From the NCBI GenBank assembly GCA_017889345.1, contig JAGHEJ010000012.1, positions 1-35,515 of the forward strand: DNA of 35,515 bases. Direction: 5' to 3'. The notes under the pieces are model-generated. The model searched no databases. It saw nothing but the letters and a program-made list of their open reading frames with translations, and was not told where the DNA came from. Source of the DNA: Clostridiales bacterium (GTDB taxonomy: Bacteria; Bacillota; Clostridia; Clostridiales; Clostridiaceae). Positions within the stretch are counted from its first letter, which is position 1. Each line of letters opens with the position of its first letter. Shown here piece by piece: positions 11,943 to 21,143 of the stretch. A program made the position numbers and the translations under genes.

Positions 11943-11971
11943 AAAAAAAGAGTAGCAAATTGCTACTCTTT
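11943..11971 (-). terminator. Terminator of the pth-mfd-prsA-prsA unit
   Basis: Perfect 11-bp arms (11947-11957 and 11961-11971) with a 3-base loop overlap the prsA stop codon. A T run follows on the minus strand. Confidence 0.88.
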
Positions 11972-12949
11972 CTTTCCTGTTATATTTTCATCAAATATTT
12001 TAACTTTATATTTGTCCTTAGATTTTTCAACTAAAGAATTTATAACCTCATTTATTTTATCAGCTTTAAGAGTCTCCTCTATACTTTTAGAAACCCTATC
12101 TAAATCTTCTGTCCATTCCTCATCATTAATATTCTCAACTTTTATAATATGATATCCAAATTGAGTTTTAACAGGTCCTCGAATTTCTCCCTCTTCCATA
12201 TCCTTAACTTCATCCATAAATTCTTTTACAAGCTGAGAGTTATCAAACTCTTGATATCCTAAATATCCTCCAACACTTGCACTCCCATCTTGACTATAAA
12301 TTTTTGCAAGCTCTCCAAAATCTCCTCCATTATCGAGCTCTGCTAAAACTTCTTCCGCTGTAGCTTCATCGCTTAAAAATATATGATAAACATCTGCTCC
12401 TGGTCCTTTTAAAAATTTATCTGAGTTTTCTTCATAATATTTCTTAATATCACTAGATGAAACTTTTAAATTATCTGTTTCATTTTGAACTAACTCTTCT
12501 ATGATTAAGGAGATTTTTAACTTTTGTTTATAATCTTCCTCATCTTTAAATCTACTATTTACAATGGCTGTCTCAAATTCTTCTTCACTTCCAAAAACAC
12601 TTTTCATATTCTCAAATTCTTCATCAACTTTTTCTTGTATTTTTGTTTCATCAACTATTCCTTCATCTTGAGCATACTGAACTAAAACTCTTTGTTCAAC
12701 ATATTGATTAACTAAATCAAGATATATATCTTTAAATTCATCTAACTCCTTATAATCCTCTCCATACTGAGCTATAAATCCATTTTCAAGTCCAGCATAA
12801 TACTCATCAACTTCTTCTCTTTTTACCTCTTCTTTTCCAATCTGAGCTACCACATTAGGATCCTTGCTAGCTTTACTCCCTAAGCAAGAATGCATTGTGC
12901 ACATTGTCATTACTAGTAAAATCATAGATGCAACTTTTCTAAACCTCAT
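11963..12949 (-). CDS. prsA: PrsA-like foldase lipoprotein (copy 1)
   Basis: An extracytoplasmic peptidyl-prolyl isomerase of the parvulin class that folds secreted proteins at the outer membrane face. A basic start and hydrophobic segment lead to a lipobox-like MHSC with Cys22; Met at -3 is unusual but tolerable. A helical chaperone region (about 35-180) follows, then the PpiC domain (about 186-272) with VYHIFLSDEATAEEVL, GGDFGELAKIYSQDGSASVGGYLG and GPVKTQFGYHIIKVE. The acidic C-terminal helix is usual. It lies 34 bases after the second prsA, its tandem paralogue, with shared motifs (YAGLENGFIAQYGEDYK). Confidence 0.92.
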   Translation of the reverse strand: MRFRKVASMILLVMTMCTMHSCLGSKASKDPNVVAQIGKEEVKREEVDEYYAGLENGFIAQYGEDYKELDEFKDIYLDLVNQYVEQRVLVQYAQDEGIVDETKIQEKVDEEFENMKSVFGSEEEFETAIVNSRFKDEEDYKQKLKISLIIEELVQNETDNLKVSSSDIKKYYEENSDKFLKGPGADVYHIFLSDEATAEEVLAELDNGGDFGELAKIYSQDGSASVGGYLGYQEFDNSQLVKEFMDEVKDMEEGEIRGPVKTQFGYHIIKVENINDEEWTEDLDRVSKSIEETLKADKINEVINSLVEKSKDKYKVKIFDENITGKKE

Positions 12950-12983: not shown

Positions 12984-14006
12984 TTATTTAAGTTTAAGGT
13001 TCTTTTCTTTAAATAAATTCTCAGAAAACTCTGTAACTGCATTTTGTTTTTTCTCAACTAAAAGGGTCTCTTCTATGTTTATTTTAACTGATTCAAAATC
13101 ATCATATTGAGGCTCATTTCTAACATCTGTAACTTTTATAATATGATATCCAAATTGAGTTTTAACAGGATCAGATATTTCCCCTTCTTTAAGATTTTTA
13201 GCTCCTGCTAAGAAATCTTGATCATAATTTGGGTTTTCATACTCAACAAATCCTAAGCTTCCTCCAGTTTGACTAGTTGAATCAGGATTTAATTCAGCAG
13301 CAATAGCAGCATAATCTTCCCCGTTGTTAAGTCTCTCTTTAACATTTAAAGCTTCCTCTTCTGTATTTACTAAAATATGATACATTTGAGCTCCAGGTCC
13401 TGTAGAAAACTTATCCTCTTTATTTTCCTCATAATAAGCCTTAATTTCTTCCTCAGTTACATTAATATCTTTAACTACATCTTGTATAAGTTTATCTATT
13501 TTTAATATGTCCTTTTGTTTCTCTTTATAATCATTCATATCTACATAATAAGCATTATTTAATTCCTCTTTTAACTTCTCTTCATTAATTTTATGTCCAT
13601 CTCCATCATCTAAAGTTCCATTTTCTTCATCAACAAATAAATGTAAAACTTCATTTGCCATATTCTCTACTTCTTTATTTATCTCCTCGTCTGTAGCAAG
13701 AGCTCTCTTATCAAATTCCTCTATAAGTATTTTATTTTGTGCGTAGTTTTCTGCAAAAATCTTTAATTGATTATCTAAATATTCCTTATTATTTTTATAA
13801 TCTTCACCATACCTTTCTACAAGAGCATCATGAAATCCCGCAAAATAACTTTCTACTTCCCCTCTCGTAACCTTTACGTTATCATAAGTAGCAACTACTT
13901 CATTGTTTATTGCTTCTTGAGTTTTTTCAACGCTACTACACGATGTCATGAAAAAAAACACCGGAAGTATAAATGAAATCTTACAAATTAGTTTGTTAAA
14001 TTTCAT
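12984..14006 (-). CDS. prsA: PrsA-like foldase lipoprotein (copy 2)
   Basis: Tandem paralogue of the adjacent foldase, 340 residues. The signal peptide ends in MTSC with Cys23 as the probable lipidation site. The helical region contains YFAGFHDALVERYGEDYKNNKEY, clearly related to copy 1. The PpiC domain (about 205-295) has MYHILVNTEEEALNVKERL, GGSLGFVEYE and DPVKTQFGYHIIKV. It begins 21 bases after mfd with no promoter visible, so it is co-transcribed with mfd. Divergence outside the core motifs suggests different client sets. Confidence 0.92.
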   Translation of the reverse strand: MKFNKLICKISFILPVFFFMTSCSSVEKTQEAINNEVVATYDNVKVTRGEVESYFAGFHDALVERYGEDYKNNKEYLDNQLKIFAENYAQNKILIEEFDKRALATDEEINKEVENMANEVLHLFVDEENGTLDDGDGHKINEEKLKEELNNAYYVDMNDYKEKQKDILKIDKLIQDVVKDINVTEEEIKAYYEENKEDKFSTGPGAQMYHILVNTEEEALNVKERLNNGEDYAAIAAELNPDSTSQTGGSLGFVEYENPNYDQDFLAGAKNLKEGEISDPVKTQFGYHIIKVTDVRNEPQYDDFESVKINIEETLLVEKKQNAVTEFSENLFKEKNLKLK

Positions 14007-17566: not shown

Positions 17567-18121
17567 TCAATTGAATAAATTCATAGCCTCAACTATTTTC
17601 CCATTTATAATCATCTCAACACATTTTAAAATGTCGTCATATTTTCCATCTAATATTAAAAGCTCCTCTTTTGTAAAATTAGACAAAACATAATTTGATA
17701 AATCAATATTCTTATTTTCTCCAATTCCTACCTTAATCCTTTTAAACTTATCCGTATTTATTTTTTTAATAATATCTCTTATTCCATTATGACCTCCATG
17801 AGATCCTTTTTCCCTTATTCTAATTTTTGAAAAATCAAGAGATATATCATCATAAATTACCAAAATATTTTCATAGGAAATTTTATAATAATTCATAAGA
17901 TAAACTAAAGCATCCCCACTTAAATTCATAAAAGTAGTGGGCTTTACGCAAATAACTTTTTCCCCAGAAATTATTCCACTTCCATATATAGAAGTACTAC
18001 ATTCTTTGTTCATTTCAATATTAAATTTTTCGCACAATTTATCTATAACCATAAATCCAATATTATGACGTGTACTTTTATATTTCTTTCCAACGTTTCC
18101 AAGTCCTACAATTAAAAACAT
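17567..18121 (-). CDS. pth: Peptidyl-tRNA hydrolase
   Basis: Pth releases peptidyl-tRNAs that drop off the ribosome. Catalytic His19 sits in STRHNIGF, Asn66 in PTTFMNLSGD, and the Asp pair 91-92 in VIYDDISLDF. GSHGGHNGIRDI completes the signature. The ATG at 18119-18121 (184 residues) is chosen over an upstream extension because AAGGAGAG precedes it and the protein then starts directly with MFLIVGLGN. It is followed by mfd, as in most Firmicutes. A hairpin terminator lies just upstream. Confidence 0.97.
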   Translation of the reverse strand: MFLIVGLGNVGKKYKSTRHNIGFMVIDKLCEKFNIEMNKECSTSIYGSGIISGEKVICVKPTTFMNLSGDALVYLMNYYKISYENILVIYDDISLDFSKIRIREKGSHGGHNGIRDIIKKINTDKFKRIKVGIGENKNIDLSNYVLSNFTKEELLILDGKYDDILKCVEMIINGKIVEAMNLFN

Positions 18122-18136
18122 AATTTCTCTCCTTAA

Positions 18137-18183
18137 AAATATTAAAATAAGAGTGCAACTAAGTAATATTTTAAGTTGCACCC
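18137..18183 (-). terminator. Hairpin terminator after the HtrA-like gene
   Basis: GAGTGCAACT (18151-18160) and AGTTGCACCC (18174-18183) pair over 10 bp with one G-U. The stem overlaps the 3' end of the HtrA-like gene and is followed on the minus strand by TTATTTTAATATTTTT. The 13-base loop makes it weaker than the others; pth starts 16 bases beyond. Confidence 0.7.
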
Positions 18184-18989
18184 TTAATCATTTCATTTAT
18201 TAATTTTATAATATCTTGTGATGAAATTAAAATAGAAGTTTCCCCATTTAAATTGTTTAAATCATTAAATTTATTACTAATCAATCCTAAAATTTCTCCA
18301 TTTACATCACAAACAGGTCCCCCAGTATTTGAGTTATTAATTTTAACATCACTTTTAATAAATTTTAAATCTCCAACCTCACCAAATCCATTTATAAGAC
18401 CTGAATAAACAGAATACGAGTTAAAATCTCCCAAATGATTTCCAATAGAAATTACTTTTAACCCATGAGTAACATCACACATATTATTTTTAAAGTTACC
18501 CTTCATATATCCATCACCTTGAATCTTTATTAAAGAAATATCATACTTCTCATTGTAAGAAACTATTTTCCCTTCTTTAACAACATCAACAGCTGATGGA
18601 AATTTTATGTATATTTTACTTGCATTTTCAAGACCACTATAGTTAGTAACTATATATCCATCCTCTGAGTATAAAACTCCAGTCAAACTATTTTTAAATA
18701 TCGAGCCATCTAAATCATCTTTAATATAAGCACTAACTCCAACAATACTTTCTCCAATTTTATTAATTACATTTAAAATATCCTCATCATATTTTTGATT
18801 AGAAATGGAAACATTTTTAAAAGAATTCTTCTCATAAGATTTTATAAATATGAAAGATCCAACAACTCCAAATATAATAGATAAAACTATGTTTAATCCT
18901 ATAAATAATAGTTCCTTATTTAAAAACCTTACATTTTTATGTCTAAAAACTATTCTTCCTTTATTTAAACCTTCATCATTAGTATTCAA
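18171..18989 (-). CDS. Membrane-anchored HtrA/trypsin-fold protein with substituted catalytic residues
   Basis: A 272-residue protein with an N-terminal cytoplasmic stretch, one membrane helix (about 27-49) and an extracytoplasmic S1C/HtrA-fold domain without PDZ. The fold is clear from DGYIVTN, EKYDISLIKI, VISIGNHLG, GGPVCDVNGEILGL. The catalytic His of TNxH is Ser118 (TNYSG). The Asp is kept (Asp150). The nucleophile of GNSGGP is Thr222 (SNTGGP). It is therefore probably a pseudoprotease with a binding or sensing role. The likely start is TTG at 18987-18989, eight bases after TAGGTGG; a GTG four codons upstream overlaps that SD. It follows the sensor kinase by 37 bases and is probably in its operon. 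Confidence 0.85.
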   Translation of the reverse strand: MNTNDEGLNKGRIVFRHKNVRFLNKELLFIGLNIVLSIIFGVVGSFIFIKSYEKNSFKNVSISNQKYDEDILNVINKIGESIVGVSAYIKDDLDGSIFKNSLTGVLYSEDGYIVTNYSGLENASKIYIKFPSAVDVVKEGKIVSYNEKYDISLIKIQGDGYMKGNFKNNMCDVTHGLKVISIGNHLGDFNSYSVYSGLINGFGEVGDLKFIKSDVKINNSNTGGPVCDVNGEILGLISNKFNDLNNLNGETSILISSQDIIKLINEMIKGAT

Positions 18990-19026
18990 AATTATTACCA
19001 CCTAAATTTAAGATTTAAAAATCAAT

Positions 19027-20457
19027 TTAGTTAGATAACTGCAATGTAAATACAAAACTAACTCCCTCTTCTTTAGGTTTATTCTCAACCCAAACTTCTT
19101 CTCTAAATTGAGAAATTATATTTCTTACAATAGATAATCCAAGACCCGTACTTTCTTTTCCCGTTCTTGATTTATCATTTTTGTAAAATCTAACCCAAAT
19201 GTTATTAAACTCCTCTTCACTTAGAAGCTTCGCTGTGTTAAAAATAGAAACAACTGCCTTATTATTCTTTATCTTAGCCGAAATATTTATTCTCTTTTTA
19301 TCATCACAATATTTAATAGCATTTGCAATTAAATTGTTAAGCACCTGTACAAGTCTATCTTCATCAGCAATTACATTTACATTTTCATGCTCAAAAAAAA
19401 CTTCCATATTTATATTATTCTGTTTTATTTCCTGCTCAAAATTCGTTACAGTATATTTAATTAATGAATTTAACTCTATAACCTTAAATCTTAAAGTAAA
19501 TTTCCCAGATTCCATAGCAGTTAAATCCAATAAGTCATTAACAAGTCTAGATAATCTTTTAACCTCATCATACACAACTTTTAATTTTTCCATGTGATTT
19601 TCAACAGGTATAATACCATCTAAAATTCCACTTAAAAATCCTATAATAGTAGTAAGAGGAGTTCTTAATTCATGAGAAACATTTGATAAAAACTCTCTTC
19701 TATTAGCATCAATTTTCTCTAAAGACTCTGCCATATAGTTAAAGGAATTGGAAAGCTCTCCTATTTCATCTTTAAAGTTAATCTCAATCCTTTTATAAAC
19801 TTCCCCTAAAGCAAATTTTTTAGCAGTGGTATTTATTATGTTAATAGGCTTAACAATAACCCTTCTAAATAAAAAATAAATAATCACACTTATTATTAAA
19901 ACACAAAAAACCATAATCAAAAAAATAGTTAAATTAAATCCAAACATTTTATTTGAGATTTCTTTATCAGAAAAGAATACAGTGATAGAGCCTTTATATA
20001 TAGAAGACTCATATAAAGGCTTAATTAATCTATAAATTTTATATTTTGAAGATGAATCATAAACTTCGACCTCTACCGTATCAACTTTTATTGATTTAAA
20101 TTTATTATACTCTTCTCCATCTTCATACTGCTTACCTAACAAATTCATGTAAGAATTATTAGATATTAAATAAACATAATTAAGAGCATCAGATAAAATA
20201 ACATCTATGTCTAAAGATTTATTAATTAAATCTATATAATCTGATAACTCTTTTATATTTTCCCCATTAGGATTATTCATATATTCTATTATGGATTTAG
20301 AAACTATCTCAGTATGCTCGGTAATATTATCAATCTTTAACTTTATTAAATTATCCCTATACCAAAAAGATATTAAAAACACAAGTAACCCAAAAACAAC
20401 AGTAATTACAGATATAAAATAAAATAATATCCTATTTATAATACTGTTTTTAAACAT
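19027..20457 (-). CDS. Membrane sensor histidine kinase
   Basis: A 476-residue kinase with TM1 (about 9-31), an extracytoplasmic sensor of about 140 residues, TM2 (about 173-197), HAMP (198-250), HisKA with His262 in SNVSHELRTPLTT, and HATPase with NNLIANAIKY and GKESTGLGLSIV. The G1 box reads IFNTAKLLSEEEFNNIW rather than DxGxG, as in a subgroup of Firmicute kinases. Its ATG overlaps the regulator's TAA by one base (TAATG), so the pair is translationally coupled. The signal is unknown. The neighbouring HtrA-like gene and prsA pair suggest envelope or secretion stress (inference). Confidence 0.93.
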   Translation of the reverse strand: MFKNSIINRILFYFISVITVVFGLLVFLISFWYRDNLIKLKIDNITEHTEIVSKSIIEYMNNPNGENIKELSDYIDLINKSLDIDVILSDALNYVYLISNNSYMNLLGKQYEDGEEYNKFKSIKVDTVEVEVYDSSSKYKIYRLIKPLYESSIYKGSITVFFSDKEISNKMFGFNLTIFLIMVFCVLIISVIIYFLFRRVIVKPINIINTTAKKFALGEVYKRIEINFKDEIGELSNSFNYMAESLEKIDANRREFLSNVSHELRTPLTTIIGFLSGILDGIIPVENHMEKLKVVYDEVKRLSRLVNDLLDLTAMESGKFTLRFKVIELNSLIKYTVTNFEQEIKQNNINMEVFFEHENVNVIADEDRLVQVLNNLIANAIKYCDDKKRINISAKIKNNKAVVSIFNTAKLLSEEEFNNIWVRFYKNDKSRTGKESTGLGLSIVRNIISQFREEVWVENKPKEEGVSFVFTLQLSN

Positions 20458-21143
20458 TACTTCACCTCAAATTTATATCCAACTCCCCAAACAGTTTCTA
20501 TTTGCCAATTCATTCCACCATTTAACTTTTCTCTCAATCTTTTAATATGTACATCAACCGTCCTAGAATCTCCAGGATAATCATATCCCCATACTTCACA
20601 CAAAAGATTTTCACGAGTAAAAACTTTATTTTTATTTGAAGCAAGATAATGAAGAAGCTCAAATTCCTTAGGAGGCATTTTTATATCCTGCCCCTTAAAA
20701 ATAACCGTATAAGAATTTATATCTATAGTTAAATCTGTAAAAATTAAATTTTCCCTAACATGACTATCTGTGTTAAATCTTCTCATAACAGCTTTTATTC
20801 TCGCTAAAAGTTCCTTAGGTTCAAATGGCTTAACCATATAATCATCTGCTCCAAGTTCTAAAGCTAAACATTTATCGAATAACTCCCCTTTAGCCGTAAG
20901 CATTATTATAGGAACACTGGAATCTCTCCTAATCCATTTTAAAACCTCAGTTCCATCAAAAAATGGCATCATAATATCTAATATAACTAAATTAGGTTTA
21001 TAATCCGGAAAAACTTCCTGAACTTCTCTTCCATCGCTACAGGATCTAATATCATAGCCAGAATTACCTAAATACATTTTTAGAACTTCTAATATGTTAA
21101 CATCATCATCTACTATCAGAACCTTAACTGCATTTCCGTCCAT
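20457..21143 (-). CDS. OmpR/PhoB-family response regulator
   Basis: A 228-residue transcription regulator. The receiver domain has the acidic pocket DDD at 12-14, phospho-acceptor Asp56 in VILDIMMPFFDG, Thr in MLTAKG and Lys in VKPFEPKELLARI. A winged-helix DNA-binding domain follows (EFELLHYLASNKNKVFTRENLLCEVWGYDYPGDSRTVDVHIKRLREKL). The ATG has a GGGAG site. It is the first gene of the regulator-kinase-HtrA-like unit. Two copies of an 8-base repeat lie upstream and could be binding sites. Confidence 0.95.
   Translation of the reverse strand: MDGNAVKVLIVDDDVNILEVLKMYLGNSGYDIRSCSDGREVQEVFPDYKPNLVILDIMMPFFDGTEVLKWIRRDSSVPIIMLTAKGELFDKCLALELGADDYMVKPFEPKELLARIKAVMRRFNTDSHVRENLIFTDLTIDINSYTVIFKGQDIKMPPKEFELLHYLASNKNKVFTRENLLCEVWGYDYPGDSRTVDVHIKRLREKLNGGMNWQIETVWGVGYKFEVK

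Follow-up and report, generated by a model that had tools for sequence, protein, structure and literature searches.

Repeated loss of catalytic residues in an HtrA encoded beside a WalK-like kinase in Clostridiaceae, and its PDZ-less form in segmented filamentous bacteria

The stretch of DNA analysed here (the window; 35,515 nucleotides, G+C ~27%) comes from the 1.66-Mb genome of a segmented filamentous bacterium (SFB) and encodes an HtrA-derived protein, pseudo-HtrA. Our observations support its assignment as a maintained, membrane-anchored pseudoprotease without a PDZ domain. They establish its pseudoprotease state and selection on the gene, the recurrence of catalytic loss in Clostridiaceae, the specificity of that loss to one locus, the dependence of HtrA on a kinase gene at that locus, and a conserved cytoplasmic tail. 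The gene, its catalytic positions (assigned by alignment with active HtrA) and its membrane anchor are as follows.

18171..18989, minus strand: pseudo-HtrA coding sequence, 272 aa, TTG start, Shine-Dalgarno sequence AGGTGG
18636..18638, minus strand: codon of Ser118, at the catalytic His position
18540..18542, minus strand: codon of Asp150, the retained catalytic Asp
18330..18332, minus strand: codon of Ser220, at the oxyanion-hole Gly position
18324..18326, minus strand: codon of Thr222, at the catalytic Ser position
18852..18926, minus strand: single N-terminal transmembrane helix, approximately residues 22-46, a hydrophobic run in the sequence (helix 21-58 in the model)

The reading frame and Shine-Dalgarno sequence were intact, as reported in a first-pass annotation of the window; an alternative GTG start lies at 19001, 12 nt upstream of the TTG. 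The protein scored 56 bits against Pfam Trypsin_2 (cut-off 27.6), the sole family matched in a Pfam scan in which neither PDZ nor YycH/YycI was found, and its chain stops at the protease/PDZ boundary. An AlphaFold model built on 86 orthologues (mean pLDDT 89) had HtrA1 as its best Foldseek match in the PDB (E 1.1e-17) and gave VIA-align Z scores of 27.5 to DegQ and 27.2 to DegS. The Trypsin_2 score and the structural Z scores together show a trypsin-like double-barrel protease domain, so that the HtrA fold read by the first-pass annotation held up in the structure modelling it had suggested. The membrane anchor and the missing PDZ domain were supported as well. Catalytic positions were assigned against the active HtrA at the same locus of a related genome. 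The replacements already reported, His by Ser and Ser by Thr with only the Asp left, were confirmed, but that list of lesions was incomplete, as the oxyanion Gly is also replaced by Ser. Pseudo-HtrA therefore has neither the His-Asp-Ser triad with oxyanion Gly nor the one or more PDZ domains of HtrA/DegP (S1C), and has the HtrA descent, degenerate triad and non-Gly193 residue of an HtrA-derived pseudoprotease. Its best NCBIfam model was DegP/Do, and the MamO model gave just 26.7 bits (cut-off 800). The distribution of positive residues suggests an N-in/C-out topology.

Pseudo-HtrA was found at the same locus in both other SFB species compared, Candidatus Arthromitus SFB-turkey UMNCA01 (58% identity) and SFB-rat-Yit (44%). 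The His and Ser positions are occupied by Tyr and Thr in SFB-turkey and by Ser and Thr in SFB-rat-Yit, the oxyanion Gly is replaced by Ser or Leu in these congeners, and the PDZ domain is missing in both. Three of three SFB species have thus lost the triad and oxyanion Gly, and the recurrence of these lesions at one locus in both congeners rules out a sequencing artefact. The window's genome encodes two more HtrAs at other loci, both with the triad intact. Between the window and SFB-turkey, the response regulator of the locus is 97.8% identical, the kinase 76% and pseudo-HtrA 58%. Also in the window is a pair of adjacent genes for PrsA-like foldases (11963-12949 and 12984-14006, minus strand), which have PPIC domains and signal peptides that contain cysteine; SFB-turkey has this pair too.

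Aligning orthologues at the pth-adjacent locus, a check proposed with the first-pass annotation, showed that the lesions are shared and that they are not the oddity of a single genome. The survey was anchored on pth in 183 Clostridiaceae genomes and yielded 150 well-covered loci with HtrA; the gene order RR-HK-HtrA-pth-mfd is conserved over Clostridiaceae, and HK-HtrA-pth occurs in a sister family. His and/or Ser was lost at 84 of the 150 loci: both residues were present at 66, both absent at 66, His alone was lost at 10 and Ser alone at 8. These dead copies are spread over 29 of the 45 genera and show 38 different combinations of residues at the His and Ser positions. The His position carries 14 different replacements; at the Ser position Thr is the commonest (29/84), and Asn, Asp, Tyr, Ile, Phe, Val, Arg, Leu and Lys are also found. 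The catalytic Asp is retained in 66 of the 84, and in most dead copies the oxyanion Gly is replaced by bulky or charged residues. Some other copies (L185, L256, L274, L288, L291 and L292) keep His, Asp and Ser and have Ser, Ile or Glu in place of the oxyanion Gly; these are possibly half-way states.

On a linked pth and HK tree (IQ-TREE), the dead state requires ~13 changes, of which strongly supported branches force 8 or more; calling the changes losses presupposes that loss is irreversible. All six outgroup-family loci are intact, indicating that catalytic loss is the derived state. SFB lie inside an all-dead clade of 20 sampled rows (SH-aLRT 97), their long branch making the placement within it less sure. 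Inactivation therefore predates SFB, which inherited the inactive state, and a recent SFB-specific loss of catalysis was rejected. PDZ_2 was matched by 82 of the 86 aligned proteins and the three SFB proteins end before it; as judged from these sequences, loss of PDZ is an SFB-specific step and nearly all other dead copies retain the domain, with highly conserved glycines and Asp outside SFB. HtrA is missing altogether at 32 of the 183 sampled loci, all in genera g15, g18, g19, g51 and g58.

The first-pass annotation had considered the gene maintained rather than decaying, and had named orthologues with intact triads combined with relaxed selection as evidence that would overturn this. Such orthologues exist, but relaxed selection was not seen: in pairs of related genomes from non-SFB genera, dN/dS spanned 0.04-0.24 among dead copies and 0.06-0.24 among active copies. 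SFB pairs were left out of this comparison, since at 44-58% identity saturation of their synonymous sites is to be expected. Reading frames of dead copies are open throughout and, together with the dN/dS values, this rejects decay to a pseudogene. HtrA paralogues in genomes with a dead copy at the pth locus had an intact His-Asp-Gly-Ser set in 32 of 32 cases, indicating that the loss is a property of the pth/kinase locus.

The genes and the hairpin around pseudo-HtrA are listed here.

19027..20457, minus strand: membrane histidine kinase, HAMP-HisKA-HATPase, WalK-like, with a Cache-like extracytoplasmic domain
20457..21143, minus strand: OmpR-family response regulator (best NCBIfam models MtrA and YycF/WalR, below cut-off)
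17567..18121, minus strand: pth (peptidyl-tRNA hydrolase), downstream neighbour
18149..18185, minus strand: hairpin over the pseudo-HtrA stop codon, with a T-rich tract behind it; rat and turkey SFB have it too

By NCBIfam the kinase resembles WalK/MtrB and the regulator WalR/MtrA, yet both score below the curated cut-offs, and the closest solved match of the kinase model was the WalK-YycH integrative model. Pseudo-HtrA follows the kinase directly on the same strand, across a gap of 37 nt without a terminator, which is the position of WalK accessory genes. Terminator-like hairpins were found in the HtrA/pth gap at 125 of 151 loci and in the kinase/HtrA gap at just 17 of 150. In the window, the stop-codon hairpin is likely to be a terminator or attenuator ahead of pth. 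The first-pass annotation had located the gene by its neighbour pth; the placement of the hairpins, and the fact that HtrA never occurs without the kinase, indicate that the upstream kinase/regulator pair is instead the relevant partner, and pth is probably not a functional partner. The C-terminal Gly-Ala-Thr codons are probably constrained by the hairpin; they lie in its conserved stem, so that nucleotide constraint may explain their conservation, and a role of this C-terminus as a PDZ ligand was set aside.

HtrA, active or dead, was accompanied by the kinase at 150 of 150 loci and never occurred without it. At 30 HtrA-less loci the kinase was kept in 19 and missing in 11 (150/0 versus 19/11, Fisher p 5e-10, phylogeny ignored). 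The regulator was an orphan beside pth in 8 of these 11 and missing too in 3, so that pth may simply have moved at some of these loci. Searches of 27 HtrA-less genomes returned at most an HtrA paralogue with 23-31% identity, and one genome gave no match; weak matches to the HtrA N-terminus in two genomes proved to be an unrelated histidine kinase. Divergence of the HtrA protease domain correlated with that of the HK sensor (partial r 0.47 given pth and the kinase core; reached in 0 of 200 permutations), more weakly among dead copies alone (r 0.29); these Mantel-type mirror correlations ignore phylogeny and their points are not phylogenetically independent. Part of the signal reflects lineage rate, since the correlation of HtrA with the kinase core is stronger (partial r 0.67 given pth). 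At matched kinase identity, the HK sensor, TM2 and HAMP diverge faster in genomes with a dead HtrA.

The alignment of pth-locus HtrAs also revealed a motif on the cytoplasmic side of the membrane anchor.

18942..18953, minus strand: I-x-F-R, residues 13-16, in the context K-G-R-I-V-F-R

Its wider form, G-x-[I/V]-x-F, is common to dead, active and outgroup copies. The Ile is invariant in the 84 of 84 aligned Clostridiaceae pth-locus HtrAs that reach the column, and a regular expression for the motif matched 123 of 151 pth-locus copies versus 3 of 32 paralogues, with about a tenth of shuffled tails matching. A second cytoplasmic motif, (V/I)KDVxWE, lies upstream of G-x-I-x-F and was matched by regular expression in 27 of 66 copies with intact triads (e.g. 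L007:814-1983) versus 1 of 85 dead copies.

From these gene-level patterns, which are indirect evidence, we infer a regulatory role for pseudo-HtrA. The simplest specific proposal, and the one we prefer, though at no better than even odds, gives it an accessory or sensory role as a subunit of the adjacent WalK-like kinase. Such a subunit would be a single-pass membrane protein, presumably co-transcribed with the upstream regulator and kinase (RR-HK-pseudoHtrA). Outside the membrane, its HtrA fold would bind a ligand, perhaps the kinase's own sensor or a protein that is unfolded or associated with the cell wall. Binding would be coupled to kinase activity by the transmembrane helix and conserved G-x-I-x-F tail, through a putative contact. 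If the ancestral active HtrA at the locus already partnered the kinase, this would explain why catalysis could be lost repeatedly while the gene was kept; PDZ would likewise have been dispensable in SFB. Conserved at the locus are the neighbouring kinase, the HtrA fold and a transmembrane anchor that carries the cytoplasmic motif; catalysis is often dispensable and PDZ is so in SFB. Against the proposal, the HK persists in 19 genomes that lack HtrA and can therefore function by itself. If the two-component system merely had HtrA as an output gene, in an envelope that evolves fast, co-occurrence and co-divergence would be expected as well.

The main rival of a kinase subunit is a non-catalytic chaperone or holdase that acts at the membrane, where it binds secreted proteins that are unfolded and passes them to foldases or active HtrAs, with the two-component system controlling its expression. 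We regard this as possible but rather unlikely. It agrees with the separability of HtrA chaperone activity from proteolysis, with the improved secretion fitness conferred by an engineered Ser-to-Ala HtrA in B. subtilis (PMC10715036), with the well-conserved PDZ domains of nearly all other dead copies, and with the PrsA-like foldase genes 4-6 kb away in the window. A chaperone, however, leaves unexplained both the near-invariant cytoplasmic motif and the absence of HtrA wherever the kinase gene is absent, and PDZ has been lost in SFB. Pseudo-HtrA could instead be a heteromeric or allosteric activator or inhibitor of an intact HtrA from another locus, on the model of MamO, an activator of MamE. 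The pseudo-HtrA fold is that of an HtrA protease domain, active paralogues are present in the sampled genomes with dead copies, and active and inactive proteases are paired in several clades with MamO (PMC4794232). Genomes with an active pth-locus copy generally carry paralogues too, so this pairing is not specific to dead copies, and the locus associates with a kinase rather than with an active HtrA gene. Gene linkage thus suits a MamO-like activator less well than a kinase subunit, and we consider an HtrA partner improbable.

Two further explanations concern the catalytic state itself. A vestigial gene en route to loss would fit the 32 sampled loci from which HtrA has been dropped entirely and the faster divergence of pseudo-HtrA within SFB (58% and 44% identity to the congeners) than of the active SFB paralogue (78% and 73%). 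The low dN/dS of dead pairs, equal to that of active pairs, the frames that are open throughout, and the retention of the gene in an ancient all-dead clade make this reading very improbable, and it is strongly disfavoured. Residual or altered catalysis by a Thr nucleophile through an unconventional mechanism is suggested by the frequency of Thr at the Ser position and the common retention of Asp. We give it almost no credence, given the variety of residues at the His and Ser positions, which point to no common alternative site, and the bulky or charged residues at most oxyanion positions.

Taken together, the results are consistent with a previously undescribed, Clostridiaceae-wide class of kinase-coupled pseudo-HtrA in which signalling is dominant and catalysis was given up on about a dozen occasions, SFB carrying a minimal membrane-anchored sensor without PDZ; we advance this class tentatively, with slightly less than even confidence. 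No description of a pseudo-HtrA at the pth/kinase locus was found in the open-licence papers searched, and 'pseudo' appears nowhere in the text of a 2025 review of Gram-positive HtrA. The default annotation would be HtrA serine protease, yet in over half of the Clostridiaceae sampled that carry the gene its product cannot act as a conventional serine protease. Repeated catalytic loss at one syntenic locus, with intact paralogues, is a natural experiment that isolates a non-catalytic HtrA function and points to coupling of the HtrA fold with a WalK-like kinase. Pseudo-HtrA also offers a testable component of envelope signalling in SFB, bacteria that are important in gut immunity and difficult to grow.

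YycH and YycI (WalH/WalI) are single-pass membrane proteins. Like pseudo-HtrA, these accessory proteins are encoded directly after a WalK-type kinase, but pseudo-HtrA has the HtrA fold and belongs to another family, and its kinase is only WalK-like, below the NCBIfam cut-off. YycH/YycI regulate WalK/YycG (PMC12826053). In the CssRS-HtrA/HtrB secretion stress system of Bacillus, two-component genes also lie beside htrA (PMC12826053); there HtrA is an active protease and a regulated output, whereas pseudo-HtrA has lost its catalytic residues. Pseudo-HtrA shares the protease-domain fold and N-terminal anchor of HtrA/DegP/DegS (MEROPS S1C) and the Gram-positive membrane-anchored HtrAs, and descends from an active HtrA at the same locus; unlike them, it has His, Ser and the oxyanion Gly replaced and no PDZ. 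CspC and CspA of Clostridioides difficile are likewise clostridial pseudoproteases, which act as signal sensors (PMC6636752); unlike pseudo-HtrA, they have a subtilisin fold, are soluble and belong to the germination pathway. MamO of magnetotactic bacteria is also HtrA-derived, with a degenerate triad, a non-Gly193 residue and recurrent inactivation (PMC4794232). For the surface di-histidine metal site of MamO, a comparison by sequence showed no His common to all three SFB proteins (His17, His175 and His185 are not all kept). MamO is encoded in the magnetosome island, is paired with MamE and binds metal, whereas pseudo-HtrA is tied to a two-component system in the order RR-HK-HtrA-pth-mfd.
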